A stretch of DNA of 64,000 nt. It comes from Fictibacillus sp. FJAT-27399 (GTDB lineage: Bacteria; Bacillota; Bacilli; Bacillales; Fictibacillaceae). This document shows positions 11,632-32,269 of the stretch, piece by piece. Made by a program: the position numbers and the translations under genes. The notes below the pieces were generated by a model. That model ran no database searches. It was not told where the DNA came from and saw nothing but the letters and a program-made list of their open reading frames with translations. Position 1 is the first letter of the stretch. Each line of letters starts with the position of its first letter. The stretch lies in contig NZ_LMVC01000001.1 in the NCBI RefSeq assembly GCF_001510655.1, positions 843,955-907,954 on the forward strand, in the 5' to 3' direction.

Positions 11632-12213
11632 ATTATACTGGGAGCCGGCAAGTCTGAGCGTATGGGCACACCTAAAATGATGCTCCGCTATCAGGAAAAA
11701 ACACTCATACGCCATGTGATCGATGCAGCACTCGACTCAGATGTAGATGATGTTGTGGTCGTTATTAACCCTGAAGTGGAAGGTTTGCTTGCCGAGGCTA
11801 CGGTGGCGGGAGTGAATAAGATTTTTTTGAATAACCACTCAAACAAAGGATTATCATCTTCCGTAAAATCAGGGCTTTATGTTTTGCCTGCTGAGGTGGA
11901 AGCTGCCATTTTTCTCCTAGGGGATCAGCCTTTGATATCTACACGAGAGATCAATCTTCTGCTGGAAGAGTTCCATGCTGACCATGAACATTTTATTTAT
12001 CAATCATCTTATATAGGGAAAAGAGGACATCCTGTCTTGTTTCACCGGAGGATGTTTAACAGGCTGTTAGAAATAAAAGGTGACAAAGGCGGCCGAGATT
12101 TAGTGAAGAAATATACCGATCAAGTAAAGATTATTGAAATGGGGAAAAACTATCCGTTTGATATTGATACAATTGCCGATTACAAAAAGCTTTTAAGAAA
12201 GGAGGTCTCTTAA
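11632..12213 (+). CDS. MocA-like molybdenum cofactor cytidylyl/nucleotidyltransferase, start codon AUU?
   Basis: The protein has the nucleotidyltransferase signature ILGAGKSERMGTPKM at its very N-terminus and LLGDQP (residues about 100) for metal and substrate binding. MocA makes molybdopterin cytosine dinucleotide for xanthine-dehydrogenase-type hydroxylases. No ATG, GTG or TTG precedes the signature in frame: the first ATG (11662) lies after the GAGxSxR loop and would remove it. GAGGGAG ends at 11622, so ATT 11632 is a possible start. It sits between xdhC and the large subunit gene, 1 base before the latter's ATG. Either an AUU start is used or the gene is damaged. Confidence 0.75.
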   Translation: MILGAGKSERMGTPKMMLRYQEKTLIRHVIDAALDSDVDDVVVVINPEVEGLLAEATVAGVNKIFLNNHSNKGLSSSVKSGLYVLPAEVEAAIFLLGDQPLISTREINLLLEEFHADHEHFIYQSSYIGKRGHPVLFHRRMFNRLLEIKGDKGGRDLVKKYTDQVKIIEMGKNYPFDIDTIADYKKLLRKEVS

Positions 12214-14643: not shown

Positions 14644-15098
14644 TGGAAGGCAAAGGAAAGCTAGTTTTAGATGCAGGAGTGGAAAGAGCTTATGAAGTGC
14701 TGCTCGATCCCAACGTTCTTGAAAAATGTATCATGGGCTGCAAAAAACTCGTCCTGGTGGAGGACAACAAGTATGAGGCCGAGCTGTCCATTGGGATCGC
14801 GGCCATAAAAGGAAACTACTCCTCTACGATCGAAATCCTCGATTTGGAGGAGCCTAACCATTACAAGCTCGCTGTAAAGGGAGAAGGATCACCGGGAACT
14901 GTAGAAGCGGTCGGAATTGTAGACCTGACCCCGGAAAGTGAAAGCTCCACTCTATTAAACTACTCATACGAAGCTGAAGTAGGCGGAAAGGTAGCGATGG
15001 TAGGACAGCGGATGCTAGGTGGAGTAGCCAAGCTGGTCATACAGGACTTTTTCAAAAAATTAGGCAAGGAATTAAAACGAATTGAACAAAGCGCTTAA
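14643..15098 (+). CDS. CoxG-like SRPBCC protein
   Basis: The 151-residue protein has the START/SRPBCC fold of the carbon monoxide dehydrogenase subunit G family: KGKLVLDAGVERAYEVLLDP at the start, a middle IAAIKGNYSSTIEI strand and a C-terminal long helix (KLVIQDFFKKLGKELKRI). CoxG proteins are thought to recruit or assemble molybdenum hydroxylases and some bind quinones; the role is not settled. TGATG overlap with the large subunit gene means coupled translation. It is not part of the classic hmf clusters as I recall them, so it may be an assembly factor specific to this lineage. Confidence 0.88.
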   Translation: MEGKGKLVLDAGVERAYEVLLDPNVLEKCIMGCKKLVLVEDNKYEAELSIGIAAIKGNYSSTIEILDLEEPNHYKLAVKGEGSPGTVEAVGIVDLTPESESSTLLNYSYEAEVGGKVAMVGQRMLGGVAKLVIQDFFKKLGKELKRIEQSA

Positions 15099-15118
15099 AG
15101 AAAGGGGCCGTGCTGATT

Positions 15119-15988
15119 ATGAAACCCGCAAAATTTGATTACTACCGGCCTAAAGATGTCTCAGAAGCCCTTTCTCTGCTGGAATCCAGCGGTTTTGACG
15201 GCAAGATTATTGCGGGGGGACAGAGTCTCGTTCCCATCATGAACATGAGGCTAGCCACCCCTGAGTGTTTAATCGACATTAATGGCTTGCATGATTTAAA
15301 TTTTATCGATAGCGATGATCATACATTAAAAATCGGGACGATGACACGGCAGAGTACGGTGGAAACCTCTGAACTCGTGAAAAAGAAATGCGGATTGGTG
15401 ACGGAAGCTGTTGCCCATATTGGCCACCTTCAAACGAGAAACCGGGGAACTATTGGTGGGAGCATCGTCCATGCAGACCCTAGTGCTGAGCTTCCCCTCG
15501 TTTTGATGGCGCTCAATGGAACACTTCACATTTCTTCAGAAGAAGAAACGAGAAGCGTGAATGCGGAGGACTTCTTTCTTACGTTTCTAACGACAGACAT
15601 GATGCCAAATGAAATGCTGACCGAAATTCATCTGCCCATATGGAAGGGACGAGTCGGCTCTTCCTTTCAGGAAGTCGCGAGGCGCCATGGTGATTTTGCG
15701 CTCGTAGCAGCCGCCTGTCAGCTTGAGCTTGACGCTCATGACAGAATTTCAGATATCCGGCTTGCGCTCGGCGGGGTAGAGGCTATTCCGCTCTTAATCG
15801 AGGATGCAAAAGAACTTCTTGCTGGTGAAAAGGTTACAGACCAAGCTGTGCAAAAAATCGCCGAGCTTGTGGCCAAGAGTGTGGAGCCCGAGTCCGATCT
15901 GCATGCCTCGGCAGCATACCGTACACAATTAGCCAAGGTTTTGACGACACGAGTTTTATATCAAGCATACGAGAGAGCAAAGGGGTGA
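15119..15988 (+). CDS. hmfB: FAD-binding medium subunit of the molybdenum hydroxylase
   Basis: The 289-residue protein has the PCMH-type FAD-binding fold of CoxM: AGGQSLVPIMNMRLATP binds FAD pyrophosphate, TIGGSIVHADPSAELPLVLM is the second FAD motif, and a CO_deh_flav_C domain follows. It passes electrons from the 2Fe-2S subunit to an acceptor. ATG 15119 is chosen because AAAGGGG lies 11 bases upstream; a GTG at 15110 is too close to it. It overlaps the next gene region by GTGA. The hmf name is taken from the cluster context. Confidence 0.85.
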   Translation: MKPAKFDYYRPKDVSEALSLLESSGFDGKIIAGGQSLVPIMNMRLATPECLIDINGLHDLNFIDSDDHTLKIGTMTRQSTVETSELVKKKCGLVTEAVAHIGHLQTRNRGTIGGSIVHADPSAELPLVLMALNGTLHISSEEETRSVNAEDFFLTFLTTDMMPNEMLTEIHLPIWKGRVGSSFQEVARRHGDFALVAAACQLELDAHDRISDIRLALGGVEAIPLLIEDAKELLAGEKVTDQAVQKIAELVAKSVEPESDLHASAAYRTQLAKVLTTRVLYQAYERAKG

Positions 15989-15993
15989 GCAGC

Positions 15994-16485
15994 ATGTCCT
16001 TAACCGAAGTAAATGTAACGATCAACGGCAAGTCGTATTCAGAGTGGGTTGAACCAAGAATGCTGTTGAGTGATTTCATACGTGAATCGTGCGGACTAAC
16101 TGGAACTCATGTAGGCTGCGAGCACGGTGTTTGCGGGGCCTGTACGGTCAGCTTGGACGGGTCGGCGGTAAGGTCGTGCTTAATCTTTGCGGTGCAGGCG
16201 GATAACCGCGAAATTAAAACGGTCGAAGGTCTAGCCAGCAGTGGAGAAATGACAACGCTTCAAAAAAATTTCGTGGAATGCCATGGTCTGCAATGTGGTT
16301 TTTGCACCGCTGGCATCTTAATGTCCATCACTGATTTTTTGGAAAAGAACCCGCAGCCTTCGGTTAAAGAAATCAAAGAAACCCTGTCAGGACATCTGTG
16401 CCGGTGCACAGGATATGACGGAATTGTGAAGGCTGTAGAGAAAACGGTTCAAGACAACAATAAAGAAGTCTTGCAAAGGAGTTGA
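15994..16485 (+). CDS. hmfC: [2Fe-2S] small subunit of the molybdenum hydroxylase
   Basis: The 163-residue protein has an N-terminal plant-type ferredoxin cluster (CEHGVCGACTVSLDG with a further Cys in RSCL) and a C-terminal helical cluster domain (GLQCGFCTAGILM, HLCRCTGY). All eight cysteines are present. ATG 15994 has AAGGGG at good distance; GTG 15985 overlapping the FAD subunit's stop is the alternative. It completes the L-M-S heterotrimer. Confidence 0.88.
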   Translation: MSLTEVNVTINGKSYSEWVEPRMLLSDFIRESCGLTGTHVGCEHGVCGACTVSLDGSAVRSCLIFAVQADNREIKTVEGLASSGEMTTLQKNFVECHGLQCGFCTAGILMSITDFLEKNPQPSVKEIKETLSGHLCRCTGYDGIVKAVEKTVQDNNKEVLQRS

Positions 16486-16489: not shown

Positions 16490-18043
16490 ATGAATCTCGG
16501 AACGTTACTGGAATTCGCAGTAGAGCGCTTCCCGAACAAGGATGCTGTCGTTCAGCAAGATCAGCGTTTATCCTATGCTAGGCTGAACAGCCAGGTTGAT
16601 AAGCTGGCCGCCTCCCTTCAGCGCATCGGAATAAAACAACAGGATCGTGTCATGGTTTTGTTAAAAAACCGGAGCGAAAATGTCATTCTCTATTGGGCGC
16701 TGCAAAAATTGGGTGCCATTTATACACCGATAAACTTCAGGCTTTCAGCAAAGGAAGTAGAGTATTGCTTTAACGATGCGGAAGCAACTGTGATTGTCTA
16801 TGAGGATGCGAGCCAGGCGGCGGTGTTAAAAGCAAGGTTCAATGAGAGGCCTGTCTATATTGGGCTCGAGGGTGTACAAGGAGCAGATATCTACTTTTCT
16901 GAACTGATTGAACGGAGCCCTGAAACGTATGACAGACCAGACATACTGGATGAAGATATCGCCTTAATGCTCTATACTTCGGGGACCACAGGAAAACCAA
17001 AGGGAGTTCCAAGAAGTCATAAAAATGAGTATGCGGCCGCCCTTGCCCATATCATCCAAAATCATTATATAGAAGGGGAGAGCACACTCGGAACAATGCC
17101 TCTCTACCACACCATGGGAATGAGATCGCTGCTTTCAATTACATTTTTAAACGGAAAGCTTGTCATACTTCCTGATTTTGACGCTAAGGATGCGCTGGAA
17201 TTGCTCTCTAAGGAAGCTGTTTCTTGTTTGTATCTTGTGCCTACTCTGTACCATGACATATTAAAGCATCCGAAATTTAGCGATTATGATCTATCGGCCC
17301 TTAAAAAAATAGGATATGCCGGGGCCTCCATGACCTCTTCCCTTACAGAGAAATGTATTGAGCGGCTGAAGCCTGAGGTGTTCGTCAATCATTATGGAAG
17401 TACTGAGGTGTACACCTTTACCATCAATTCAAATGTCTTCGAAAAGCCATGTTGTGCAGGCAAACCAGGGTTTCATCAAAACATCAGGCTGGTTAGAGCA
17501 GACCCGGACGGACATTCAACCTGCGAAGAGATCGTAGGAAAAGGTGAAATCGGTGAGATCATTGTCAATTTGCAATCAGTTGAAGCGTTCAAGGGATATT
17601 GGAACCGGCCTGATGCGACCCAAAAAGCGATTCGTGAAGGCTGGTATTTTACAGGAGATCTTGGTGTGCTGGATGAAGACGGCGATCTGCATGTCGTCGG
17701 CAGAGTGGACGACATGATAATCTCAGGCGGCGAAAACATCCACCCTCTGGAAGTCGAAGACGTCATCTCCGAGCATGAGAATGTAATCGAAGTCGCCATT
17801 GTCGGAGAAGAAGACGATAGATGGGGACAGATTGTATCAGCGTTCGTCGTTCCCGCCAGCCATACTGTCTCGATTCAAGAGCTGGACGAGTTCTGCAAAA
17901 ACCATCCGCAGCTCTCCAACTACAAAAGGCCGCGAAAGTATGTATTTGTTAAGGAAATTCCGAAAAGTCCTGTCGGAAAAGTGTTGAGGCGGAAATTGCG
18001 GGATGGGGAATTTGAATTGTTCAAATCAGAAAAAGTAGTTTAA
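16490..18043 (+). CDS. hmfD: acyl-CoA synthetase, probable 2-furoyl-CoA synthetase
   Basis: The 517-residue ANL-superfamily enzyme carries the P-loop MLYTSGTTGKPKG (about residue 160), the A5 region NHYGSTEVYT, the A7 motif YFTGDLG and the C-terminal lysine in PKSPVGKVLRR. It would adenylate a carboxylic acid and transfer it to CoA. Its place between the hydroxylase and an enoyl-CoA hydratase matches hmfD, which activates 2-furoate; a benzoate- or other heteroaromatic-acid ligase cannot be excluded from sequence alone. It starts 4 bases after hmfC with AAAGGAG. Confidence 0.82.
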   Translation: MNLGTLLEFAVERFPNKDAVVQQDQRLSYARLNSQVDKLAASLQRIGIKQQDRVMVLLKNRSENVILYWALQKLGAIYTPINFRLSAKEVEYCFNDAEATVIVYEDASQAAVLKARFNERPVYIGLEGVQGADIYFSELIERSPETYDRPDILDEDIALMLYTSGTTGKPKGVPRSHKNEYAAALAHIIQNHYIEGESTLGTMPLYHTMGMRSLLSITFLNGKLVILPDFDAKDALELLSKEAVSCLYLVPTLYHDILKHPKFSDYDLSALKKIGYAGASMTSSLTEKCIERLKPEVFVNHYGSTEVYTFTINSNVFEKPCCAGKPGFHQNIRLVRADPDGHSTCEEIVGKGEIGEIIVNLQSVEAFKGYWNRPDATQKAIREGWYFTGDLGVLDEDGDLHVVGRVDDMIISGGENIHPLEVEDVISEHENVIEVAIVGEEDDRWGQIVSAFVVPASHTVSIQELDEFCKNHPQLSNYKRPRKYVFVKEIPKSPVGKVLRRKLRDGEFELFKSEKVV

Positions 18044-18071: not shown

Positions 18072-18860
18072 ATGACAACCACTACTCAATATGATCACAT
18101 CCGTGTAGAAAAGAACAGGGAAACACAAACAGCGACCATTTTATTCGACCGACCGGAAAAAATGAATTACATCAGTATGCTCGCCAGGAAACAATTTGCT
18201 GAGATCTTTGAAGAATTGAACGATGACGAAGGCGTACGTGTCATCATTGTAAAGGGTGAAGGCGACAAGTGTTTTAGTGCTGGCGGAAGTATTCCTCAGT
18301 TCATGGAAACTCATCCTGAAGAATTGTCCCGTTTAAGAGTGAACGTTGCCGCACCAGAGCGTTCCCCGAAGCCCGTCATCGCACAGCTTCAAGGATATAC
18401 ATTTGGGGTAGGCTTTGAGATTGCCATGGCGTGTGATTTCAGAATCGCTGCTGACGACACCCTCCTCGGGTTGCCGGAAATGAATTTGGGCATGATTCCC
18501 GGAAGCGGAGGGACGCAGCGTGTGGCACGGGCTGTAGGCCTTACAAGAGCAAAGGATATGATCATGAGGGCAAGAAGGATACCTGCTGAAGAGGCGTACC
18601 AATGGGGATTGATTACTAAGGTTGTGGCGAAAGAGGAGCTTGACAATGAAGTGGATCAACTGGCGGCTGAGCTCGTACGGTTTTCACCACTTGCTCAGCG
18701 TGTTTGTAAAGAAGTATTGAATGCTGCTGAGGAAGGCCCGTTAAGCACCGGATTAGAGATTGAGGGAAGAGCGTATGGCATGCTGAGATGCACCGAAGAC
18801 TTCAAAGAAGGTGTTGATGCATTTGTTGAGAAAAGAAAACCGAACTTTACCGGGAAGTAA
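18072..18860 (+). CDS. hmfE: enoyl-CoA hydratase/isomerase family protein (HmfE-like)
   Basis: The 262-residue crotonase-fold protein keeps both catalytic glutamates: one in GVGFEIAMACDFR, one in LGLPEMNLGMIPGSGGTQR. The oxyanion-hole region is CFSAGGSIPQF. In the hmf pathway this enzyme hydrolyses or hydrates 5-hydroxy-2-furoyl-CoA toward 2-oxoglutaryl-CoA; that substrate is inferred. It follows hmfD by 28 bases with GAAAGGGG. A hairpin follows, so hmfA-E may form a separable transcript. Confidence 0.82.
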   Translation: MTTTTQYDHIRVEKNRETQTATILFDRPEKMNYISMLARKQFAEIFEELNDDEGVRVIIVKGEGDKCFSAGGSIPQFMETHPEELSRLRVNVAAPERSPKPVIAQLQGYTFGVGFEIAMACDFRIAADDTLLGLPEMNLGMIPGSGGTQRVARAVGLTRAKDMIMRARRIPAEEAYQWGLITKVVAKEELDNEVDQLAAELVRFSPLAQRVCKEVLNAAEEGPLSTGLEIEGRAYGMLRCTEDFKEGVDAFVEKRKPNFTGK

Positions 18861-19004: not shown

Positions 19005-20342
19005 ATGTCAAGTGCAATACCTTCTGAGGTTGTTCAAAAAACGGAAGCACCAAAAGTGAGTAACAGGCAAATGGTTTCTGCAACAGCTGCTTCATTATTA
19101 GGATGGTCCTTTGATTTATATGATCTCTTCATTCTCCTGTATGTTACACCAACCATAGGTAAGCTATTTTTTCCTACAACTAATCCCACACTGTCCCTGG
19201 CTGCTGTATATGCTTCTTTTGCCGTCACACTGCTTATGAGACCACTCGGATCCGCCATATTCGGATCGTATGCCGACAAGCATGGCAGAAAGAATGCCAT
19301 GACAGTGGCGATCGTCGGGGTTGGTATTAGTACTGCTATTTTTGGATTACTGCCAACGGTTCCGCAAATCGGCTTTTTCGCTGCCTTCCTGTTTTTACTG
19401 CTGCGGCTCGTCCAGGGAATCTTTGTCGGTGGGGTAGTCGCCTCCACCCATACCATTGGAACCGAAACGGCACCTCCTAAATGGAGAGGATTAATGTCAG
19501 GCCTTATTGGCGGAGGAGGCGCTGGGCTAGGCGCACTATTTGCTTCCATCGTTTTTACAGTCGTTTCAGCACTGTTTCCCGGTGAAGCCTTTGATAGTTG
19601 GGGCTGGAGAGTCATGTTCTTTACAGGTATTTTAGGAGCCATTGCGGGCCTTTTTGTGTTTAGGACGCTGGAGGAATCCCCGTTATGGGCCGAAATGAAA
19701 ACGAAAAAAAACTCAAAACAAAAAATCGTCCAACAAAAACCGGTTAAATCGCTGTTTACGACATACTCCCGTGTACTTCTGGTGAATTTAATGATCGTTA
19801 TCGGAGGCGGATCGGGTTATTACCTGACTGCCGGATTTATTCCAACCTTCCTTAATGTCGTAAATAAAGTATCCTCTTCGACGCTGTCCGGCGTTCTTAT
19901 TGCGGCCAGTATAGCTACCATTATATCTGCACTCATTGCCGGACATCTGAGTGAAATCTTTGGCAGAAAAAAGGTATTCCTTGTCATCGGCGTATTGAAC
20001 GTTATCGGATTACCTTATTTTTATCTATCACTGGCTGATGCTGCGTCCGTTTCATCCATCTATTTTTATGTCATATGTCTTGTACTATTAGGCAATGCGG
20101 CGTATGCACCTGTCCTGATTTTTTTAAACGAGCGCTTTCCTACCTCCATCCGGTCAACCGGGACAGGCCTTTCATGGAATATGGGCTTTGCCGTCGGTGG
20201 AATGATGCCTACTTTTGTTACTTTGACGAGTGGATCCATTGAAAACATTCCCCATACATTGATGTATTTTACGATCGTGATATATCTGATTTACATTATT
20301 GGAAGCGTTATCATCCCAGAAACGAGAGGCAGACTGCAATAG
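19005..20342 (+). CDS. MFS transporter, aromatic acid:H+ symporter (AAHS) type
   Basis: The 445-residue protein has twelve predicted membrane helices and the MFS signature GSYADKHGRKNAMT between helices 2 and 3. The SFDLYDLFILLY start, with an acidic residue pair in helix 1, is typical of AAHS carriers for aromatic or heteroaromatic acids. In this context it probably imports 2-furoate or a related acid. The start follows TTGGAGG. It opens the second half of the island (carrier, aldehyde and alcohol dehydrogenases, R2-like oxidase, symporter, decarboxylase). Confidence 0.88.
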   Translation: MSSAIPSEVVQKTEAPKVSNRQMVSATAASLLGWSFDLYDLFILLYVTPTIGKLFFPTTNPTLSLAAVYASFAVTLLMRPLGSAIFGSYADKHGRKNAMTVAIVGVGISTAIFGLLPTVPQIGFFAAFLFLLLRLVQGIFVGGVVASTHTIGTETAPPKWRGLMSGLIGGGGAGLGALFASIVFTVVSALFPGEAFDSWGWRVMFFTGILGAIAGLFVFRTLEESPLWAEMKTKKNSKQKIVQQKPVKSLFTTYSRVLLVNLMIVIGGGSGYYLTAGFIPTFLNVVNKVSSSTLSGVLIAASIATIISALIAGHLSEIFGRKKVFLVIGVLNVIGLPYFYLSLADAASVSSIYFYVICLVLLGNAAYAPVLIFLNERFPTSIRSTGTGLSWNMGFAVGGMMPTFVTLTSGSIENIPHTLMYFTIVIYLIYIIGSVIIPETRGRLQ

Positions 20343-20400: not shown

Positions 20401-21888
20401 ATGTCAACTATCGTCCATAAAAAGATACCCACTTATTATAATTTTGCAGGCGGCGAGTGGACTGAAGCGACTTCTAAGGAGCTGATAGAATCGTTTAATC
20501 CGGCGACCGGAGAACTGGTCAGCTATTCGCAAAAATCGAATATTCAGGATGTATCCCAGATTATAGAGTCAGTACAGCATTCATTCCTGACAAGTGATTG
20601 GTCAATGAATCCTAAGCGCCGTTATGAAGCGTTGCATTCGTTGGCCGAAAAAATGACAGAAAAGCTGGAGCACCTTGCTCTCATCCTCACGATGGATCAG
20701 GGAAAGACAATTCGCGAGTCGCGGATCGAGCTGTCAGGCTGTATTGATACACTGAAGTATTTTGCAGGAGCCTCACGTTCTGTCTTTGGCCGTTCCATGC
20801 AGCTTGAACCCGATAATTTTGGTGTCGTTGTAAAAGAGCCGGTTGGCGTGGTGGGAATCATATCACCTTGGAACTGGCCCGCGTTGCTCATGATTCGTGA
20901 ACTCGCACCTGCTCTTGCTGCCGGTAATGGAGTTCTCGTCAAGCCAGCAAGCCTTACTCCTTCAATATCCGTAGAGATCTTTAAGCTCATTGCTGAAATT
21001 CCTCATTTTCCAAAAGGGATCGTTAGCATCGTGACCGGTCCAGGAAAGTCCATTGGAGCAGCCATGGCAGCCAGTGACAAGATCGACATGATCAGCTTTA
21101 CGGGGGACACCTCTACTGGCAAGTCCATCATTGAAATGGGAGCAGGAAATGTCAAAAAAGTAGCACTCGAACTTGGCGGGAAATCTCCGAACGTCGTCTT
21201 TGAGGATGCAAATCTTGATAAAGCTGTTCCGGTCATCGGACGTTCCATTTTTATTTCCGCTGGCCAAATCTGCATGGCCGGTTCCAGGGTGGTCATTCAT
21301 GAATCCATTAAAGACGAAGTGGTCAAACGTCTAAAAGAATATGCCGAACAGCTGCGGGTGGAAAACGGGCTTCTGGAAACGGCTGATATGGGGCCGTTGG
21401 TCTCACAAAGCCAATTGGATCTTGTTGAAGAGTATTGTGAAATCGGGCGGAAAGAAGGAAGAATCATTACTGGCGGCTACCGAATGGCAGGCGAAACATA
21501 TGATCAGGGCTTTTATTTCGCTCCTACCATCATTGATGGGCTCATGGCCGGCAGCCGCGTGGTCAAAGAAGAAATTTTCGGGCCTGTTCTCGCTGTTCAG
21601 ACATTCTCAACGGAAAAAGAAGCACTTCACATTGCGAATGACAGTGATTTTGGTTTGTCCGCCGGTGTATGGACATCTGATCTCAACCGAGCGGTACGGA
21701 TGTCCAAAGGGATCAAAGCGGGAACCGTCTGGATCAATACGTACAACAAAAACTTTCCTGAAACAGAATTTGGGGGTTACAAGCAGAGCGGTTTAGGAAG
21801 AACAAGGGGAGTGGATGGCCTGATGGAATATTGCGAGACGAAGCATGTGCATATTGAAATGGACCCTCGTGAGGGGGCTTCTCTATGA
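20401..21888 (+). CDS. NAD(P)-dependent aldehyde dehydrogenase
   Basis: The 495-residue protein has all class hallmarks: SPWNWP (residues about 155-160), FTGDTSTG in the cofactor site, catalytic E257 in ALELGGKSPN and the nucleophile C291 in GQICMAGSR, plus EEIFGPV. It would oxidise an aldehyde such as furfural or HMF to the acid that the downstream-acting CoA ligase uses; the substrate is inferred. The start follows AAGAAGGGAGA. Its last bases overlap the alcohol dehydrogenase start as ATGA, so the two steps are coupled. Confidence 0.9.
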   Translation: MSTIVHKKIPTYYNFAGGEWTEATSKELIESFNPATGELVSYSQKSNIQDVSQIIESVQHSFLTSDWSMNPKRRYEALHSLAEKMTEKLEHLALILTMDQGKTIRESRIELSGCIDTLKYFAGASRSVFGRSMQLEPDNFGVVVKEPVGVVGIISPWNWPALLMIRELAPALAAGNGVLVKPASLTPSISVEIFKLIAEIPHFPKGIVSIVTGPGKSIGAAMAASDKIDMISFTGDTSTGKSIIEMGAGNVKKVALELGGKSPNVVFEDANLDKAVPVIGRSIFISAGQICMAGSRVVIHESIKDEVVKRLKEYAEQLRVENGLLETADMGPLVSQSQLDLVEEYCEIGRKEGRIITGGYRMAGETYDQGFYFAPTIIDGLMAGSRVVKEEIFGPVLAVQTFSTEKEALHIANDSDFGLSAGVWTSDLNRAVRMSKGIKAGTVWINTYNKNFPETEFGGYKQSGLGRTRGVDGLMEYCETKHVHIEMDPREGASL

Positions 21889-23063
21889 ACATGAGTTCTA
21901 TAGTAAAACAGACAGGGCAGGACTTCTCCTTTCATTTGCCTACGCGGATAGAGTTCGGGTATGGAAAATCCTCCCTCCTTGCGGAGAACCTCGTAAATCT
22001 TGGTGTGAACAGGGTTTTTATCGTCAGTGATAAAGGGGTGGAATCCGCCGGATTATTGAGCGGAATCATTTCATCGCTGCAAGATTCAAAGATTGTCAGC
22101 GAGCTCTATCTAGAGGTAGAGCCTGATCCGAGTCTTGAAACGATTGATCGTGGAGCCGAGTATTTTCTATCGGGGCACTATGATTGTCTCGTTGCAGTAG
22201 GAGGCGGAAGTGTCATAGACACTGCAAAAGGGATTAGGATTGTAGCAAGCCAGGGCGGCAGCATCCGCGATTATGCAGGAGTCGATAAAATCGTAAGCTC
22301 CTCAGCTATTCCGCTGCTTACGATACCAACCACATCCGGGACAGGGAGTGAGGTGACTATCTTCGGTGTTTACTCAGACTGGAAGAACAATGTAAAAGTG
22401 ACCGTCACCAGCCAGCATATGGCTCCGACTCTTACTATTGTTGATCCTGAACTGACCATGGGGTTACCAGAAAATATGACCGCAGCCTCCGGAATTGATG
22501 CTCTGGCCCATGGAATCGAAACCTACTTTTCCTTACGGTCGTGCCCTGCATCCGATGCACTGGCCACTGAAGCGATTACCACTGTCGGTTCACACCTTAG
22601 ACAGGCTGTTGTGGACGGAAAAGATAAGGAAGCACGAATTGGAATGTCGCACGGAAGCTTACTGGCAGGGATGGCGTTTAACAACGGCTTCCTTGGGCTT
22701 GCCCACGCCATTGGAAGTGCTCTTTCCGGTCATTGCCATGTTCCTCACGGAATAGCCATCGGCTTGCTCCTCCCCCGCGTCGTTGAGTTCAATGCTCAAG
22801 TGTGCCCACTTAAAGCGGCTAAGATTGCGCAGTTGTTGGGGGTTGAGGGAGAAGACGAAACACAGTTGGCCGGTCAGGCGGCTAAAGCAGTGGCTTTCCT
22901 GGTGCGAGAAATTGGACTGCCTACCCGGTTGAAGGAATTGAACGTCCCTGAGGACAGGCTCGCTGCAATTGCAAGTGACTCTTTTCAAAGCGGGATGATG
23001 AGGTTTAATCCCCGGCAGCCAGCAGAGGCTGACGTTCTGGATCTGTTAAAGCGAGTTTACTAG
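21885..23063 (+). CDS. iron-containing (group III) alcohol dehydrogenase
   Basis: The 392-residue protein has VGGGSVIDTAKG (NAD-binding), and metal ligands D205 and H209 in GIDALAHG, H274 in LAHAIG and H288 in CHVPHG. It would interconvert an alcohol and an aldehyde, here possibly furfuryl alcohol or HMF with the product passed to the aldehyde dehydrogenase next to it. AGGGGG lies seven bases before the ATG inside the previous gene. Full family length. Confidence 0.9.
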   Translation: MNMSSIVKQTGQDFSFHLPTRIEFGYGKSSLLAENLVNLGVNRVFIVSDKGVESAGLLSGIISSLQDSKIVSELYLEVEPDPSLETIDRGAEYFLSGHYDCLVAVGGGSVIDTAKGIRIVASQGGSIRDYAGVDKIVSSSAIPLLTIPTTSGTGSEVTIFGVYSDWKNNVKVTVTSQHMAPTLTIVDPELTMGLPENMTAASGIDALAHGIETYFSLRSCPASDALATEAITTVGSHLRQAVVDGKDKEARIGMSHGSLLAGMAFNNGFLGLAHAIGSALSGHCHVPHGIAIGLLLPRVVEFNAQVCPLKAAKIAQLLGVEGEDETQLAGQAAKAVAFLVREIGLPTRLKELNVPEDRLAAIASDSFQSGMMRFNPRQPAEADVLDLLKRVY

Positions 23064-23094: not shown

Positions 23095-23925
23095 ATGAGC
23101 GATGAGTTGATTCTTAGTTTGGAAAAAAGTACAGACGAGGTAGCCTGGAATTTATACCGGAAAGCGATACGGTTTGGAACGTGGGATCCTGCTGAGATCG
23201 ATTTAACCCATGACAGAGATGATTTTGAAGCACTTGATCAAGACCTGAAAGATTACCTCATTCACTTTTGCACCGGATTTCTTGATGCAGAAGAGAATGT
23301 TGCCTTAAAATTTTGTCCCTGGATCATGCTTGGGGCATCCACCCAGCAACAAGCCTTCCTCAGTACTCAGTTGTTGGAGGAATTCAAGCATACCGAATTT
23401 TTCCTTCGGTACTTTGAAGAGGTACTCGGCATCAAACGTATACATGGAGTGCAAAATCTCGTTCAGCAAAAGCTGGATGAGCGGGGCAAAATGATGCTCA
23501 ATGCACTGGAAGGCAGTATAGAGGAACGCGAAGCTGCCCTCGTTGAAGGATTGACTCACTACCAGGGAATCATTGAAGGTGTACAAGCCATGGCGGGGTA
23601 CGATGTATTTGAGGATATTTATGGAAGTAAAGGACTCCTGCCCGGGTTGAAAGAAGGCTTCAAACGTATAAAAGAGGATGAAGGCCGCCACGTCGGCTTT
23701 GGGCTTCGCATGTTAAAGCTGCTCGCAAGAAATGAAAAGCACGCCAATAGAATACGAGAGATTTATAGTGAATATCTTCCCTACATTTTGATTCGCTACG
23801 ATCAGCCGGTAGTGGTTGGCGGACGCGAGGTTCCAACCCCGGTGGAGGTGAACGGCCGGCAGCGGGTGACGAAGCTTTTTGAAAGGCGCCTGAAGGACAT
23901 ATTCGGAGTGCGATCCGTGAGTTAA
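23095..23925 (+). CDS. R2-like ligand-binding oxidase (R2lox), Mn/Fe ferritin-like protein
   Basis: The 276-residue ferritin-like protein aligns by eye with Geobacillus R2loxI over its whole length. Metal ligands are present: E66 (DAEEN), E96 and H99 (EEFKH), E161 (IIEG), E196 and H199 (DEGRH). The two residues that form the ether cross-link in known R2lox proteins, Val and Tyr, are also present as V69 and Y156. R2lox binds a long-chain ligand and activates oxygen at a Mn/Fe site; its natural reaction is unknown. It is not a class I ribonucleotide reductase subunit, since it is short and has no NrdE partner. It starts 31 bases after the alcohol dehydrogenase gene, with GGAGGCG. Confidence 0.88.
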   Translation: MSDELILSLEKSTDEVAWNLYRKAIRFGTWDPAEIDLTHDRDDFEALDQDLKDYLIHFCTGFLDAEENVALKFCPWIMLGASTQQQAFLSTQLLEEFKHTEFFLRYFEEVLGIKRIHGVQNLVQQKLDERGKMMLNALEGSIEEREAALVEGLTHYQGIIEGVQAMAGYDVFEDIYGSKGLLPGLKEGFKRIKEDEGRHVGFGLRMLKLLARNEKHANRIREIYSEYLPYILIRYDQPVVVGGREVPTPVEVNGRQRVTKLFERRLKDIFGVRSVS

Positions 23926-23941: not shown

Positions 23942-25429
23942 TTGGTGACAGCCAGTGCCATAATCATAGGAATAGTCATTTTGTATGTGCTAGCCACTGC
24001 TTTTCTTGGACTATATACGAAGAAATTCTCAAAAAGCTCGGACAAATATATGACAGGAGGAAAAGCTTTCGGCCCTTTTATTATCGGGGTCTTGATGATG
24101 TCTGAATTCATAGGCACCGGCTCTACGATCGGCACCGCGCAAACCGCTTTTTCTAGAGGAATCTCGGCTTCCTGGAACTTAATCACACTCGCGCTTGCTT
24201 TCGCTTTGTTTGCCTACACACTGGCAAAAAAGTTCCATGAGCGTGGAGAGTATACCATTTCTGGGGCTATATCGAAAACTTACGGAAATGGTGCGAGAAC
24301 GATTACCTCAGTCATTATGATTTATGCCCTAAGCGTGGTCAACGTATCAATGTACGCGGGAGGGGCGGCGACCTTATCTGCGATTATTCACGTCCCCCAT
24401 GCGATGGCAGCAATTGTGGTGGGGGTAGTCACAGTTGTTTACGTTACCTTGGGCGGAATGTTTGCGGTTGCTTATACCAACCTTATTCATGCGTTTTTTA
24501 AATATTTGGGATTAATTCTGGCAGTCTCGTTCGGTTTAACTGCAGCAGGCGGTTTTTCAGGTCTGTCGCTGCAGCTAAAGCCAGCGATGTTTGACTGGAC
24601 AGGCATTTCATGGCAAACCATTATTGCATGGACCATCGCCAACATTGGCTCTATTTTTTCTACTCAATACATCATTCAGGCGGTTTGCTCGACTAATGAT
24701 GAGGTCAACGCAAAAAAAGCAAGTATTTACGCAGGAGTGTTCGTAATTCCTGTAGGAATCATGGCCGCTCTCATTGGGATGACAGCCTCTATATTGTTTC
24801 CGAATATCGTATCTTCCGAGGCTTTTCCGATGTTGACTACCCTTATGAATCCTTTCCTTGCGGGTCTTGTGATCTCCGGATTAATCGCCGCGGTTTTTGG
24901 AACAGTGGCCGCCTCAACAATTGGAGCAGCTGCCCTATTGTTAAATGACTTTTATACTCCGCTCTTTAATAAAGAAGGATCAGACAATAAATCACTCAGG
25001 TTTTCAAGAGTGGCGACTATTGTGATGGGTCTTTTACCTATTCCGTTCGCCATTTTTACCCCGGAAATACTAAACACAATCTTTTTTGCCAGGGCACTCC
25101 GTACAACAATCGCCGTTATCGTGGTTTTGATGTTTTATTTTCCCCGTTTCAGCAGCGGAATAGGGGCTGCCCTTGGAATGATATTCGCTGTAATTACAAC
25201 AACAGTTTGGTTTCTTGCAGGAAACCCGTTCGGTATCGATAACATTTATATCGCTGCTGTTGCACCTCTTATCGTAATGGGAATCGATCATTTTTGGCGA
25301 AAAAACAAAACTGTGGTTCATGAGGAACGTTCAAATGAAATAACGGCCACCAATACAAGGTGCAATAGAGATAAGGGGGAAAGGTGTAATGAAGGCAAGA
25401 ACATTTCGTACATGGCTAGCTCACCTTGA
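23942..25429 (+). CDS. sodium:solute symporter family protein
   Basis: The 495-residue protein has about 13 hydrophobic helices and SSS-family features (SDKYMTGGKAFGP near the start, EFIGTGSTIGTAQ, and a conserved NDFYTP after helix 8). The substrate is unknown; the context suggests a carboxylic acid. It begins with TTG 23942 or GTG 23945 after AGGAGGG. The last 41 bases overlap the UbiD gene in another frame, so the tail KNISYMASSP is probably not important. The island thus has two different importers, one proton- and one sodium-driven. Confidence 0.85.
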   Translation: MVTASAIIIGIVILYVLATAFLGLYTKKFSKSSDKYMTGGKAFGPFIIGVLMMSEFIGTGSTIGTAQTAFSRGISASWNLITLALAFALFAYTLAKKFHERGEYTISGAISKTYGNGARTITSVIMIYALSVVNVSMYAGGAATLSAIIHVPHAMAAIVVGVVTVVYVTLGGMFAVAYTNLIHAFFKYLGLILAVSFGLTAAGGFSGLSLQLKPAMFDWTGISWQTIIAWTIANIGSIFSTQYIIQAVCSTNDEVNAKKASIYAGVFVIPVGIMAALIGMTASILFPNIVSSEAFPMLTTLMNPFLAGLVISGLIAAVFGTVAASTIGAAALLLNDFYTPLFNKEGSDNKSLRFSRVATIVMGLLPIPFAIFTPEILNTIFFARALRTTIAVIVVLMFYFPRFSSGIGAALGMIFAVITTTVWFLAGNPFGIDNIYIAAVAPLIVMGIDHFWRKNKTVVHEERSNEITATNTRCNRDKGERCNEGKNISYMASSP

Positions 25430-26807
25430 ATCGACAGGGAGGCTGGTGGCCATCGATAAAAAAGTGAGTCTGGAGTATGAGACCGCTGCTGTCGCAAAGA
25501 AACTGGACGGCAAAAAAGCGGTATATTTTTCAAATGTTGAGAACTATGGGATGCCTGTCGTTTCGGGGATATGTTCTACAAGAGATGACTTTGCTGAAGC
25601 ATTGGAAACAGACCAATATGGAATCATTCCAAAATTCACTGAAGCAGTAACTTCACCAAAAGCATGCAGAAAAGTGAGCAACCAAGATGCCCCGGTAAAG
25701 GAAAATATCATCACCGAGAACATCGATTTGCTTAAGACCTTTCCCATTCCCGTCCACCATGAGATGGATTCTGGAAATTACATTACCGCAGGCCTGTTCA
25801 TTACCCGTGATCCGGTGACCCGAAAGCAAAATGTATCCATTCATCGCCTGCAGATTTCTGGAAAGGATAAACTGGGAGTACTTTTGCTGCCGAGGCACAC
25901 CTTTCATTTGTACAAACAGGCAGAGGAGGAAGGAAGGGCGCTCGAATGTGCCATAGTTGTAGGAGTGGATCCTGTGACACTTCTTGCTTCACAGGCGAGT
26001 ACCCCATTCGGGATAGATGAGCTGGAAATAGCCAGTGCTCTGCGATCAGAACCACTTGAGACCGTTCGTTGTGAAACGGTGGACATTGATGTGCCTGCCT
26101 ATGCGGAGATCGTTTTAGAAGGTAAAATCCTCCCGCATATTCGGGAGCCGGAAGGACCGTTTGGGGAGTTCCCTAAATATTACGGCCCGCGGAGTGACAA
26201 GGAAATTGTTCAGCTAACCGCCGTGTCACACCGAAAAGACCCGATCTTTTATACGATTATCCCGGCTGGATACGAGCATCTTCTGCTCGGGGGCATTCCA
26301 CGTGAGGCTAGCCTCATTCAAAGTGTCCGCCAGACTGTGCCTTCTGCCGTTGCGGTTCACATGAGTCCAGGCGGGACATGCCGTTATCATGCGGTCGTAT
26401 CCATAAAAAAGCGAAACAAAGGTGAAGCTAAGAATGCCATCCTCGCTGCCTTCGCAAACAGTTTTGATATAAAGCACGTGGTTGTCGTCGATGAAGAGGT
26501 AGATATATTTAACATGGAGGAAGTAGAATGGGCAATTGCTACGCGTTTCCAGGTGGACAAGGATTTAGTTGTAGTAGAGGGGGCGCAAGGCTCAAAACTC
26601 GATCCGTCCACAAATGACGGGTTCGGCTCGAAAACGGGATTTGACTGTACAGTTCCACTTAACAGTGAACCGATGCGTTATAAACGAATTTCCATTCCGG
26701 GATACGCAAATATGGACATCCAGGAGTATCTAAACGAAACATCATCAGGGGTAAACCCAGAGCATCTTGAGTATGGCAACAGGAGGAATGATTCCTTGAC
26801 CAGCTGA
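25389..26807 (+). CDS. hmfF: UbiD-family prenylated-FMN decarboxylase, probable furandicarboxylate decarboxylase
   Basis: The 472-residue protein belongs to UbiD/Fdc enzymes. The prFMN-site arginine R153 is in SIHRLQISG and the catalytic glutamate pair E255/E260 is in EPEGPFGEF, the E-R-E network of the family. In hmf clusters HmfF decarboxylates furan-2,5-dicarboxylate to 2-furoate; pyrrole-2-carboxylate or aromatic acids are alternatives. The UbiX/HmfG flavin prenyltransferase needed to make prFMN is not in the window. The ATG follows AAGGGGGAAAGG inside the symporter gene. The stop codon lies within the terminator hairpin. Confidence 0.85.
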   Translation: MKARTFRTWLAHLESTGRLVAIDKKVSLEYETAAVAKKLDGKKAVYFSNVENYGMPVVSGICSTRDDFAEALETDQYGIIPKFTEAVTSPKACRKVSNQDAPVKENIITENIDLLKTFPIPVHHEMDSGNYITAGLFITRDPVTRKQNVSIHRLQISGKDKLGVLLLPRHTFHLYKQAEEEGRALECAIVVGVDPVTLLASQASTPFGIDELEIASALRSEPLETVRCETVDIDVPAYAEIVLEGKILPHIREPEGPFGEFPKYYGPRSDKEIVQLTAVSHRKDPIFYTIIPAGYEHLLLGGIPREASLIQSVRQTVPSAVAVHMSPGGTCRYHAVVSIKKRNKGEAKNAILAAFANSFDIKHVVVVDEEVDIFNMEEVEWAIATRFQVDKDLVVVEGAQGSKLDPSTNDGFGSKTGFDCTVPLNSEPMRYKRISIPGYANMDIQEYLNETSSGVNPEHLEYGNRRNDSLTS

Positions 26808-26828
26808 TCAATGACAGCTGGTCTTTTG
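26798..26828 (+). terminator. terminator of the catabolic island
   Basis: GACCAGCTG (26798-26806) pairs with CAGCTGGTC (26815-26823), followed by TTTTG. The hmfF stop codon is inside the stem. Confidence 0.8.
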
Positions 26829-29348: not shown

Positions 29349-29379
29349 TGAATTGAACCAATGGGAGGGAAACATACTA

Positions 29380-30429
29380 ATGACGAAACAAAAAAATGTT
29401 AACTTACGAAAACAAGTTGCCCCATATGAAAAACCGAATACGAAAAATAGTGTAGCACAGCTCATTAATACGCTTGTTCCATTTTTTCTATTGTGGTACC
29501 TGGCTTACGAAAGCCTGTCTATTTCCTATTTCATCACTTTGCCATTAACGATTATTGGAGCGGGATTTTTGACGCGGATCTTTATTATTTTTCACGATTG
29601 CTGCCACCATTCATTCTTTAGAAATCGAAAAGCCAATAAAATAGTGGGAACGATTACAGGAATCCTTACGTTATTCCCGTACCACCAATGGCAGCATGAA
29701 CATAACATCCATCACGCTACAAGCAGTAACTTAAATAAACGCGGTACAGGTGACATTTGGATCCTGACGGTAGATGAGTATTTAGCTGCATCTTTTTGGA
29801 CTCGCATCGCTTATCGATTGTACCGCAATCCAATCGTGATGTTTGGTCTTGGCCCGATTTACGTGTTTCTGATTACGAACCGTTTTAACCGAAAAGGAGC
29901 AAGATCGAAAGAACGCAAGAATTTATATATAACGAATCTTTCTATCGCTGCATTGGCCGCATTGCTTTGCTGGACCATCGGCTGGGAAGCATTCTTGCTT
30001 GTTCAAGGCCCTATTTTCTTCGTATCAGGTGTTGCTGGCATTTGGCTGTTCTATGTACAGCATCAGTTTGAAGACTCTTATTTTGAAAAAGACGAAGATT
30101 GGGATTACGTGAAAGCCGCTATGGATGGGAGCTCTTACTACAAACTTCCGAAAGTCCTGCAATGGCTGACAGGCAATATTGGATTTCATCATATTCATCA
30201 TTTAAGCCCAAGGGTGCCAAATTATCACTTGGAAGATGTTCATAGTATTGATTCAACTTTTCAAAATGTACAAACGATCACGCTTGCTTCAAGTCTTCGT
30301 TCCCTGGGATTCCGTCTTTGGAATGAGGAGAGCAGAACGTTTGTCAGCTTTAAAGACATTAAAAAGATAAAATCAAACAAGAATAATACAAGAGCGGCCC
30401 ATTTAAAATCAAGCTTGAGCGGCCGATAA
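29380..30429 (+). CDS. des: membrane acyl-lipid desaturase
   Basis: The 349-residue membrane protein has the three histidine boxes HDCCHH, HEHNIHH and HIHHLSP typical of acyl-lipid desaturases, with four or more membrane helices. In Bacillus, Des puts a cis double bond in membrane phospholipid acyl chains after cold shock. ATG 29380 follows GGGAGGG; an upstream TTG lies before that site and is rejected. The desK-desR genes follow directly, as in Bacillus subtilis, where they control des. Confidence 0.93.
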   Translation: MTKQKNVNLRKQVAPYEKPNTKNSVAQLINTLVPFFLLWYLAYESLSISYFITLPLTIIGAGFLTRIFIIFHDCCHHSFFRNRKANKIVGTITGILTLFPYHQWQHEHNIHHATSSNLNKRGTGDIWILTVDEYLAASFWTRIAYRLYRNPIVMFGLGPIYVFLITNRFNRKGARSKERKNLYITNLSIAALAALLCWTIGWEAFLLVQGPIFFVSGVAGIWLFYVQHQFEDSYFEKDEDWDYVKAAMDGSSYYKLPKVLQWLTGNIGFHHIHHLSPRVPNYHLEDVHSIDSTFQNVQTITLASSLRSLGFRLWNEESRTFVSFKDIKKIKSNKNNTRAAHLKSSLSGR

Positions 30430-30436
30430 CAAATAA

Positions 30437-30475
30437 AGTCCTGAAAGCAGGTGTAAAACCCTTGTTTTCAGGACT
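30437..30475 (+). terminator. hairpin between des and desK
   Basis: AGTCCTGAAA pairs with TTTCAGGACT. There is no T run, so partial termination or RNA processing between des and desKR is plausible. Confidence 0.5.
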
Positions 30476-30545
30476 CTATTCTGTCTTCAAAAGTAATTGT
30501 GATAAAATAGCAATAGGCATTCAATACCGCAAAAGAGGGTTCAAT

Positions 30546-31673
30546 ATGAAAAAGATCTATAAGCTGTTTCAAATAAATACCGGGATTTCCCCGTATGTGT
30601 GGAGCGTTTTTAGTATTTTGCCGTTTTATTTTATTTTTCAATCTTCATCCACGAAACAAATTGTCGTGGGTATTTTGCTGACCATTTTATTCTTTATCAC
30701 CTATCGTTTTGCCTTCATATCAAAAGGGTGGCCTGTTTACGTATGGGCTAGCATTCTAATTGCCATATCGATTACCATGACAAGCCTTTTTAACTATGTT
30801 TATTTTGCATTTTTTCTTGCTTATTTTATTGGTAATATAAAAGAACGTATTCCTTTTATTTCCTTATATATTATTCATCTCGTCAGCACGACTGTTTCTT
30901 TTAACTTCAACATAGTTTTTCAAGATGATCAGTTCTTAAAACAATTGCCTTTTATCATCATCATTTGGGTCAGTATCATCCTTATGCCTTTCAGTTTATC
31001 TAACCGAAAAAAGCGTGAGCAGCTGGAAGAACAATTGCAAGACGCGAATTCTGTTCTAGTAAAACAGCAGGAACGCCAGCGGATTGCCCGTGATCTTCAC
31101 GATACTTTAGGACAAAAACTTTCACTGATCGGGTTGAAAAGTGATTTGGCCAGAAAGTTAATTGACAAAGACCCCGAGCAGGCTCGTTCTCAGTTGAACG
31201 ACGTACAACAGACCGCTAGAACAGCACTGAACGAAGTCCGGAAAATGGTGTCTCAAATGCGGGGCATTCGATTAGAAGAGGAACTCATCAACGTCAAACA
31301 AATACTTAAAGCGGCGCAAATTGAATATATAGGTGAACAAGAATTACACCTCACGAATGTTTCCCTGCTGATCGAAAATATTTTGAGCATGTGTCTGAAA
31401 GAAGCGGTAACCAATGTCGTAAGGCACAGCGGCGCGACAACCTGTCATATATCAATCAAACAATCGTTAAACGAAATTATGATTTCCATACGGGATAACG
31501 GAGCAGGAATAAGAGTTGATGAAGATATGACAAAAGGCCACGGACTACTAGGAATAAAAGAACGGCTTGAATTTGTCAACGGTCGTCTGGAGATCTTTTC
31601 AGAGGAGGGGACGACGTTAATCATACAAGTGCCGAATGTTATAAAATCGGCGGAAAAGGAGGGAGATAAATGA
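30546..31673 (+). CDS. desK: membrane-fluidity sensor histidine kinase DesK
   Basis: The 375-residue protein has five membrane helices (to about residue 150), a coiled-coil linker with charged SNRKKREQLEEQL, the HisKA_3 motif with H185 in RIARDLHDTLGQ, and a HATPase_c domain (DNGAG, KGHGLLGIKERL). DesK senses bilayer thickness and order on cooling and phosphorylates DesR. ATG 30546 is preceded by AGAGGG; an upstream TTG inside the hairpin is rejected. Overlaps desR as ATGA. Confidence 0.92.
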   Translation: MKKIYKLFQINTGISPYVWSVFSILPFYFIFQSSSTKQIVVGILLTILFFITYRFAFISKGWPVYVWASILIAISITMTSLFNYVYFAFFLAYFIGNIKERIPFISLYIIHLVSTTVSFNFNIVFQDDQFLKQLPFIIIIWVSIILMPFSLSNRKKREQLEEQLQDANSVLVKQQERQRIARDLHDTLGQKLSLIGLKSDLARKLIDKDPEQARSQLNDVQQTARTALNEVRKMVSQMRGIRLEEELINVKQILKAAQIEYIGEQELHLTNVSLLIENILSMCLKEAVTNVVRHSGATTCHISIKQSLNEIMISIRDNGAGIRVDEDMTKGHGLLGIKERLEFVNGRLEIFSEEGTTLIIQVPNVIKSAEKEGDK

Positions 31674-32269
31674 TTCGGATCGTCATTGCGGAAGACCAGC
31701 AAATGATGTTGGGGGCACTGGGTTTGCTGCTTAATTTGGAAGAGGATATGGAAGTGGTCGGAAAGGCAAGCGACGGAGAAAAAGCGATTTCGCTTGTTCA
31801 TCAGCATCAGCCTGACATTTGTATCATGGATATTGAAATGCCAGTAAAAACGGGACTTGAAGCAGCGGAAGAACTAAAAGGATCAGGCTGCAAAGTAATA
31901 ATTTTAACGACATTCGCTCGTACAGGATATTTCCAGCGGGCCGTAAAGGCGGGGGTCAGAGGGTATTTGTTGAAGGACAGTCCGAGCGAAGAATTGGCTA
32001 GCTCCATCCGCAGTGTGATGGCAGGCAGGCGAATCTATGCCCCGGAACTCGTGGAGGATGCATACAGTGAGGAGAACCCTCTAACTGACCGGGAAAAAGA
32101 AGTTTTATCCCTCGTGGCTGATGGAAAAAACACAAAAGAAATCGCCGATCAGCTTTCCATCAAAGCTGGAACGGTGCGAAACTATATTTCAACGATATTA
32201 GAAAAACTTGAAGTCACCAATCGGATTGAAGCCATTACCAGATTCCAGGAAAAAGGCTGGTTTAAATAA
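31670..32269 (+). CDS. desR: response regulator DesR
   Basis: The 199-residue NarL/LuxR-family regulator has a receiver domain with phospho-acceptor D54 in CIMDIEMPVKTG, and a C-terminal helix-turn-helix with LTDREKEVLSLVADGKN. It activates the des promoter when phosphorylated by DesK. The start overlaps desK and follows GGAGGGAG. Confidence 0.93.
   Translation: MIRIVIAEDQQMMLGALGLLLNLEEDMEVVGKASDGEKAISLVHQHQPDICIMDIEMPVKTGLEAAEELKGSGCKVIILTTFARTGYFQRAVKAGVRGYLLKDSPSEELASSIRSVMAGRRIYAPELVEDAYSEENPLTDREKEVLSLVADGKNTKEIADQLSIKAGTVRNYISTILEKLEVTNRIEAITRFQEKGWFK

Follow-up and report, generated by a model that had tools for sequence, protein, structure and literature searches.

The window, which is the whole stretch of 64,000 nucleotides of Fictibacillus sp. 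FJAT-27399 that was analysed, carries a gene for an R2-like ligand-binding oxidase (R2lox) inside a gene island at positions 9746–26807. All genes of the island, from the AraC-type regulator through the UbiD gene, are co-directional on the + strand (Table 1). The R2lox gene has an ATG start with GGAGG upstream. As the preliminary description had stated, an iron-containing alcohol dehydrogenase (Fe-ADH) gene lies upstream and an SSS-family symporter gene downstream. The aldehyde dehydrogenase (ALDH) and Fe-ADH genes share 4 nt, the gap from Fe-ADH to R2lox is 31 nt, and that from R2lox to the symporter gene is 16 nt; the symporter gene overlaps the UbiD gene. An SSS symporter gene beside the island is uncommon among relatives (L039, L040, L058, and L069). 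Terminator-like patterns, one of them where the UbiD gene ends, were found at 24 sites in the region versus 18.0 in shuffles. Elsewhere in the window, a fatty acid desaturase gene was seen with a DesK/DesR-like two-component system, which we take to be an ordinary membrane-fluidity system.

Table 1. Genes and other features of the window, with the basis of each assignment.
Feature	Position	Strand	Basis
AraC-type response regulator	9746..10534	+	family match
XdhC family protein	10535..11608	+	family match
MobA-like nucleotidyltransferase	11662..12213	+	family match
Mo hydroxylase molybdopterin subunit; candidate furoyl-CoA dehydrogenase	12214..14643	+	
CoxG family protein	14643..15098	+	family match
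Mo hydroxylase FAD subunit	15110..15988	+	family match
Mo hydroxylase [2Fe-2S] subunit	15985..16485	+	family match
Acyl-CoA ligase (AMP-binding); possible HmfD counterpart	16490..18043	+	
Enoyl-CoA hydratase family protein; possible HmfE counterpart	18072..18860	+	
MFS metabolite/H+ symporter; possible HmfT counterpart	19005..20342	+	
ALDH; candidate HMF/FFCA dehydrogenase	20401..21888	+	
Fe-ADH; candidate HMFCA dehydrogenase	21885..23063	+	
R2lox, 276 aa	23095..23925	+	NCBIfam NF006200, residues, tree, predicted fold
Sodium/solute symporter (SSS family)	23942..25429	+	
UbiD-family decarboxylase, HmfF (FDCA decarboxylase) type	25389..26807	+	best PDB match 6h6v
Terminator-like stem-loop and T run, end of UbiD gene	26798..26823	+	pattern match only
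Fatty acid desaturase with DesK/DesR-like two-component system	29353..32269		

The UbiD protein matched 6h6v in the PDB with 557 bits, versus 220.6 bits for the next family. Structure 6H6V is that of HmfF of Pelotomaculum (PMC10176493). The three-subunit Mo hydroxylase, the CoA ligase, and the hydratase-fold protein were present at family level, and no hmf-specific model matched. Of genes that could also belong to fatty-acid degradation, those for a CoA ligase, an ADH, an ALDH, and a hydratase-fold protein lie near R2lox, but together with the HmfF-type UbiD and the Mo hydroxylase. Judged by its predicted products, the island is of the HMF/furoate (hmf) type. The furan-type acid island claimed in the preliminary description was borne out by the HmfF-type UbiD, the Mo hydroxylase, the CoA ligase, and the hydratase family. 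Among 20 window genes tested, no thiolase or acyl-CoA dehydrogenase was found, and no ferredoxin or reductase except the [2Fe-2S] subunit of the Mo hydroxylase itself. Two UbiX matches exceeded the cut-off, both elsewhere in the genome and outside the island; a cluster of flavoprotein-family genes of UbiX size was present in the loci of 10 of 26 relatives, one representative having been tested with Pfam. A second UbiX–UbiD pair was seen at G000:C1:38075-39969; its UbiD is 41% identical to that of the island and is perhaps a phenolic-acid decarboxylase.

The island was compared with the hmf/psf cluster of Pseudomonas umsongensis (hmf also in Cupriavidus basilensis). Family-level counterparts of hmfABC, hmfD, hmfE, hmfF, the transporter, and psfA can be proposed in the window, as can those of the alcohol dehydrogenase, the Mo-cofactor helper, and the AraC-type regulator (PMC12064950). 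The steps matched by family to the P. umsongensis list would be CoA ligase, Mo hydroxylase, 2-oxoglutaroyl-CoA hydrolase, FDCA decarboxylase, and alcohol/aldehyde dehydrogenase. PsfG of P. umsongensis is a short-chain dehydrogenase, whereas the window has an Fe-ADH (PMC12064950). The window island yielded no match for the UbiX of the P. umsongensis cluster, for 'hyd' (a putative hydrolase), or for its second transporter. The published hmf/psf table of that organism holds no R2lox, which is the window enzyme without a place there (PMC12064950).

The R2lox protein scored 234.6 bits against NCBIfam NF006200 'R2-like ligand-binding oxidase' (cut-off 194) and fell below the cut-off of each of the four sister models. 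In a PDB sequence search, GkR2loxI structures were nearest, at 94.7 bits, or 100.1 bits with a five-sequence profile; therefore, the PDB copy searched holds no close member of the protein's own clade. Structure prediction, named as a check in the preliminary description, gave a confident AlphaFold2 model (mean pLDDT 91.4, pTM 0.88). Among the best 50 Foldseek matches listed, rows 1–34 were R2lox entries (TM 0.60–0.78, identity 24–29%), followed by ribonucleotide reductase (RNR) R2 proteins with weaker E-values. Alignment with the GkR2loxI chain, numbered as in PMC10867098, placed its E69, V72, E102, H105, Y162, E167, E202, and H205 at E66, V69, E96, H99, Y156, E161, E196, and H199 of the window protein. 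The residues V69 and Y156 had been proposed as the cross-link pair, and they correspond to the V72/Y162 pair of GkR2loxI. The six metal ligands (E66, E96, H99, E161, E196, and H199) and the pair V69/Y156 are invariant in 35/35 clade members and 15/15 canonical R2lox. The residues A165 and Y169 (Ala171 and Tyr175 of GkR2loxI) are likewise invariant in these 35 and 15 proteins. The cavity residue, Ala or Phe, separates R2lox from RNR R2 (PMC6399176). An RNR R2 subunit was rejected for the window gene, which has A165 where R2 carries Phe; the genome has a separate R2 that scores 256.5 bits versus 57.5 for the window gene. No RNR genes were found among the 20 window genes tested. As predicted from its sequence, the window gene is a true R2lox. 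The original R2lox call was confirmed by the NF006200 score, the metal ligands, V69/Y156, and the cavity Ala.

In a tree of 51 sequences, the window R2lox fell inside one clade, set off from the rest by a branch with 100/99 support. Members of the clade were found only in Bacilli within the searches made, and the tree labels are Bacillota. In a phylum-wide sample of 398 genomes, no clade member besides that of the window's genome was found at E 1e-50. The clade alignment comprised 35 sequences, without L070, L073, L075, and L077 (contigs of the same length as those of L046, L047, L064, and L063) and without L071 and L076. Two short, distant R2lox-like proteins (L105 and L106, 269 aa as called) formed a very long branch outside the canonical group and the clade; they were kept in the tree and dropped from the residue comparison.

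GkR2loxI (GK2771; PDB 4hr0 and others), MtR2lox (3ee4), SaR2loxI/II, and SeR2lox share the (predicted) fold, the six ligands, and the Val/Tyr pair with the window protein. GkR2loxI is about 30% identical to it and belongs to a separate clade, and Gly68 of GkR2loxI is Ala65 in the window. The II in the name SaR2loxII does not imply membership in the clade of the window R2lox and GkR2loxII. The window clade is polar at N68 (34/35, one Ser), Q92, H155 (33/35, two Gln), and Q164, where canonical R2lox are mostly non-polar; the operon type differs as well. Position Q157 of the window protein stands for Asn and is little informative. If they faced the channel, the residues N68, Q92, H155, and Q164 would be suited to a polar ligand. 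The known ligands of R2lox are long-chain fatty acids, held in a hydrophobic channel (PMC6399176). The dN/dS of the window R2lox was 0.03 and 0.05 versus L040 and L041, with dS saturated there; it was 0.64 versus L039 on very few changes and undefined for three other pairs.

The co-occurrence of the clade with HmfF-type UbiD was investigated by genome, with E ≤ 1e-60 for the clade and at least 58% identity to the window's UbiD for the HmfF type (next group at most 44%). In 398 genomes of the class, the clade was found in 18 and HmfF-type UbiD in 22, and both occurred in 18, that is in all clade carriers. By genus, the clade was present in 11 of 12 HmfF genera. Fisher's test gave 1.1e-27 by genome and 1.1e-15 by genus, with kinship ignored in both. 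R2lox and UbiD lay within about 2 kb of each other in 15/18 genomes carrying both. As a control, 15 genomes among 100 relatives with a distant R2lox match only (including G034, with its match at E 1.2e-4) were searched, and HmfF-type UbiD was found in one (G039, 55%). The preliminary description had held that a metabolic neighbourhood would be a clue to R2lox function. A conserved neighbourhood was indeed found, with HmfF in 18/18 clade genomes and linkage across gene orders.

A contig scan with a five-sequence alignment and two short peptide patterns yielded 26 loci, 60–98% identical, in named bacilli. The peptide-pattern scan missed clade members at 52–55%, which the whole-genome search found. 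Within at most 10 kb on each side of R2lox, the 26 loci held ALDH (25), Fe-ADH (25), UbiD (23), MFS (22), CoA ligase (17), the enoyl-CoA hydratase family (ECH, 17), and the Mo large subunit (MoL, 15). Fe-ADH was less than 300 bp from R2lox in 22/26 loci, and UbiD in 19/26. Three loci without UbiD (L057, L061, and L063) had one elsewhere, at 62–64%. In 5/26 loci (L047, L050, L051, L052, and L062), R2lox was accompanied by MFS, ALDH, Fe-ADH, and UbiD, and the 10 kb fetched contained none of the ring-opening genes tested.

Absence of R2lox from the islands of relatives had been named as evidence against a role in the pathway. Such absence was not seen within the genus: among six Fictibacillus genomes including the window's, the four with HmfF-type UbiD all had R2lox, and the other two had neither. 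Outside the genus, some islands were without R2lox. HmfF-type UbiD occurred without the clade in 4/22 genomes (G191, G211, G295, and G299); MFS, ALDH, and Fe-ADH were still beside UbiD in G191, G211, and G299, and the stretch fetched from G295 held UbiD alone among the genes tested. The R2lox gene of G329 lies outside the island, about 2.1 Mb off, where its neighbours include genes for a MOSC protein, a carbon-nitrogen hydrolase, and a fumarase; no sigma-54 site was found near it. No R2lox remnants were found in six HmfF loci that have no adjacent R2lox (L038, L078, L079, L080, L081, and L084), nor in L085 (best tblastn E 1.6 and 6.9). Because some islands are without R2lox, it is regarded as an add-on, which would extend or protect the pathway and not complete it. 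In L039 (F. terranigra), the HmfF-type UbiD (12296–13674) was seen in two frames with a break near residue 249, through either an error in sequencing or a disrupted gene; the island is otherwise 92–99% identical.

The linkage of R2lox to island genes was retained through six gene orders. The commonest order was ALDH-ADH-R2lox-(SSS)-UbiD. The others were ALDH-ADH-UbiD-R2lox (L059); SSS-UbiD-MFS-ALDH-ADH-R2lox (L058); UbiD-R2lox-MFS-ALDH-ADH-CoA ligase and then the regulator (L065, L066, and L068, with L067 reversed and cut); ALDH-ADH-UbiD-MFS-R2lox-CoA ligase-regulator (L090, Geobacillus plasmid); and R2lox detached from the other island genes (L060, L061, and L063). A CoA ligase paralogue, 45–58% identical to the window's, was seen beside Fe-ADH or R2lox and adjoining an AraC-type regulator in L065, L066, L068, L081, L090 (15144–16670), and L109.

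A strict -24/-12 sigma-54-type site was located 43–65 bases upstream of the R2lox start in L060, L061, and L063 (positions 9855, 9862, and 9892). One such site preceded the R2lox-containing operon in L048, L050, L051, and L052. Strict sites numbered 29 versus 2.5 expected in 37 loci, in which L063 and L077, with 7 sites each, are one region counted twice. Locus L063 had six more sigma-54-type sites; one of them, at 15775 on the minus strand, stands at the start of a frame leading into ALDH and Fe-ADH and is read as their putative shared promoter. The strict pattern was absent from L072, where R2lox is also detached, and from the window. Sigma-54 activator genes were assigned to 8/26 loci by clustering, with one representative confirmed with Pfam. 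The window island has an AraC-type regulator, whereas the furan islands of several bacilli show sigma-54-type sites and activators.

The tree distances of R2lox were correlated with those of the island genes. In the 17 loci holding all eight genes, the correlation was 0.45 for UbiD, 0.36 for CoA ligase, 0.36 for MoL, 0.33 for MFS, 0.30 for Fe-ADH, 0.28 for ECH, and 0.21 for ALDH. These low values with all genes suggested that R2lox has its own history within the islands. On sets of unequal size and range, the values were 0.81 for UbiD, 0.80 for CoA ligase, 0.74 for Fe-ADH, 0.70 for ALDH, 0.48 for MFS, 0.33 for MoL, and 0.22 for ECH. A link to the upper branch drawn from these unequal sets was withdrawn, as the equal set gives 0.21–0.45 without clear order.

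The neighbours of canonical R2lox were examined in 16 loci of 15–20 kb from 13 genomes; G088 (3-kb contig), G034 (E 1.2e-4), and a partial second match in G055 were left out. ALDH and Fe-ADH relatives were both present in 8/16 loci, several of the eight coming from sister species, and a CoA ligase relative was present in 4 of the 8. The base rate of the ALDH/Fe-ADH pair was about 1.1% of 20-kb windows in one genome. No UbiD or Mo hydroxylase relatives were found in the 16 canonical loci at E 1e-10. Two R2lox groups of about 30% identity thus share an alcohol–aldehyde oxidation pair, as expected if the enzyme makes an alcohol. Neighbours reported for GK2771 (GkR2loxI) include ADH, ALDH, and CoA ligase (PMC10867098).

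The R2lox of the Geobacillus plasmid record was taken as GKP26, because PMC10867098 places GKP26 on that plasmid. This protein, named GkR2loxII in the same paper, is described there with ADH, ALDH, and '4-chlorobenzoyl CoA ligase' neighbours, a role on aromatic hydrocarbons being left open; the passages on GKP26 draw no link to furans (PMC10867098). GKP26 of Geobacillus kaustophilus pHTA426 is in the same clade as the window R2lox (61% identity). Its locus holds UbiD, ALDH, Fe-ADH, MFS, two CoA ligases, XdhC, and Mo hydroxylase subunits like that of the window, but in a different gene order. No publication linking R2lox to furan degradation, and nothing relevant on 5-methylfurfural degradation by a monooxygenase, was found in the titles and abstract starts of the open-licence literature. 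The Geobacillus cluster may already have been noted in the 2010 HMF paper of Koopman and colleagues.

The conserved context suggested that R2lox very probably belongs to the furan pathway of the island. The preliminary description had proposed that it oxidises or ring-activates a pathway compound. Ring activation appears less likely than side-chain oxidation, because R2lox adjoins the upper-branch genes Fe-ADH and UbiD, because the five loci above have none of the tested ring-opening genes within 10 kb, and because the CoA ligase and Mo hydroxylase are already candidates for ring activation. For the same adjacency and the same five loci, R2lox was provisionally assigned to the upper (HMF/FDCA) branch. 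Tentatively, and with somewhat more doubt than confidence, the clade R2lox may be an accessory enzyme of this branch in Bacilli that hydroxylates a methylfuran. In this mechanism, R2lox would assemble a Mn/Fe (or Fe/Fe) cofactor, form the Val–Tyr ether, and activate O2 for two-electron oxidations. The substrate could, less certainly, be a furan that bears an exocyclic methyl group, for example 5-methylfurfural or 5-methyl-2-furoate. A methylfuran would be a natural candidate in a furan island because its product, HMF or 5-hydroxymethyl-2-furoate (HMFCA), is the next substrate. O2-dependent hydroxylation would give HMF or HMFCA. From there, Fe-ADH and ALDH would lead to FDCA by oxidation and UbiD to 2-furoate by decarboxylation, and the CoA ligase, the Mo hydroxylase, and the hydratase-fold protein would convert furoate to 2-oxoglutarate.

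Several results weaken the methylfuran reading: the 4/22 HmfF genomes without the clade, the split in G329, the flat tree correlations, the absence of a ferredoxin or reductase among the 20 genes, and the fatty-acid ligands of known R2lox. The growth of P. umsongensis on HMF, explained without R2lox in PMC12064950, also counts against it. Other roles were also weighed. HmfH is a GMC-type oxidoreductase, and a genome search found no GMC oxidoreductase, hence no HmfH-type enzyme. R2lox might act in its stead and, beside or in place of Fe-ADH, use O2 to oxidise the hydroxymethyl group (of HMFCA, giving FFCA, or of HMF, giving diformylfuran). HMF degraders are reported to carry HmfH or PsfG, never both, and unrelated enzymes are thought to fill the step (PMC12064950). 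However, the step already has a candidate in Fe-ADH and ALDH, kept in 25/26 R2lox loci and in G191, G211, and G299 without R2lox, and such a function is unlikely. A protective function, which the preliminary description had also put forward for reactive aldehydes, is distinctly unlikely. In that case, R2lox would supply no carbon but dispose of reactive oxygen, a dead-end by-product, or toxic furan aldehydes. Both HMF and furfural have toxic effects, and an accessory role would agree with islands that do without R2lox, but ALDH already deals with aldehydes. Two other R2lox proteins were assayed for aldehyde deformylation with a negative outcome (PMC10867098), and a deformylase was set aside on these tests.

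Hydroxylation of alkanes or aromatic hydrocarbons instead of furans has a precedent in the literature. The preliminary description had stated that no physiological substrate of R2lox is established. Papers of 2014 and 2018 do call the natural job unknown, but alkane hydroxylation was claimed in 2024 for the distant GkR2loxI from cell and lysate assays, its lysates losing alkane, and action of GKP26 on aromatic hydrocarbons was raised as a question (PMC10867098). The site-2 double mutant of GkR2loxI showed only a modest loss of activity (PMC10867098). The low identity to GkR2loxI, the separate clade, the HmfF-type UbiD of the islands, and the lack of thiolase and acyl-CoA dehydrogenase among the 20 window genes tested all make this very improbable for the window R2lox. 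UbiD lies close to R2lox in most loci and has the highest of the low correlations, which would fit a supply of oxidising equivalents for prFMN maturation in UbiD. Yet HmfF-type UbiD occurs without the clade in the four genomes above and also in Pelotomaculum, from which there is a structure of HmfF with prFMN (6H6X), and in L061 and L063 R2lox is apart from UbiD but retained with its own promoter-like site. Such a helper function is barely credible, and a UbiD maturation factor was set aside, as islands exist with UbiD and without R2lox. It is hardly to be expected, finally, that R2lox is a passenger that travels with a mobile island and has no role in it. The occurrence of the island is patchy, in Geobacillus kaustophilus it lies on a plasmid, and the tree correlation on equal sets is low with all island genes, which made this reading slightly more credible and the methylfuran reading slightly less so; but the linkage outlasts six gene orders, the catalytic residues are retained in 35/35, dN/dS is low versus L040 and L041 (dS saturated), and R2lox has promoter-like sites of its own in some loci.

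Hydroxylation of a methylfuran was retained as the best explanation. A wider generalisation is more doubtful and, on balance, rather unlikely: the clade would hydroxylate small polar furans in a Mn/Fe-dependent reaction and give 5-methylfurans, which derive from 6-deoxysugars, access to the HMF pathway, and the combination of R2lox with Fe-ADH and ALDH would generally mark R2lox as an entry hydroxylase. If true, this would place R2lox in a chemically defined catabolic pathway. Tying the clade to named intermediates (HMF, HMFCA, FFCA, FDCA, and furoate) would leave a few compounds as possible substrates, and genomes that have this island without R2lox would serve as ready-made natural controls. 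The long-standing question of R2lox function would become testable, with relevance for FDCA and biomass-inhibitor biotechnology. The furan compounds of the pathway are formed on heating sugars, and the recurrence of R2lox in the furan gene set of bacilli suggests that it has a concrete job there.
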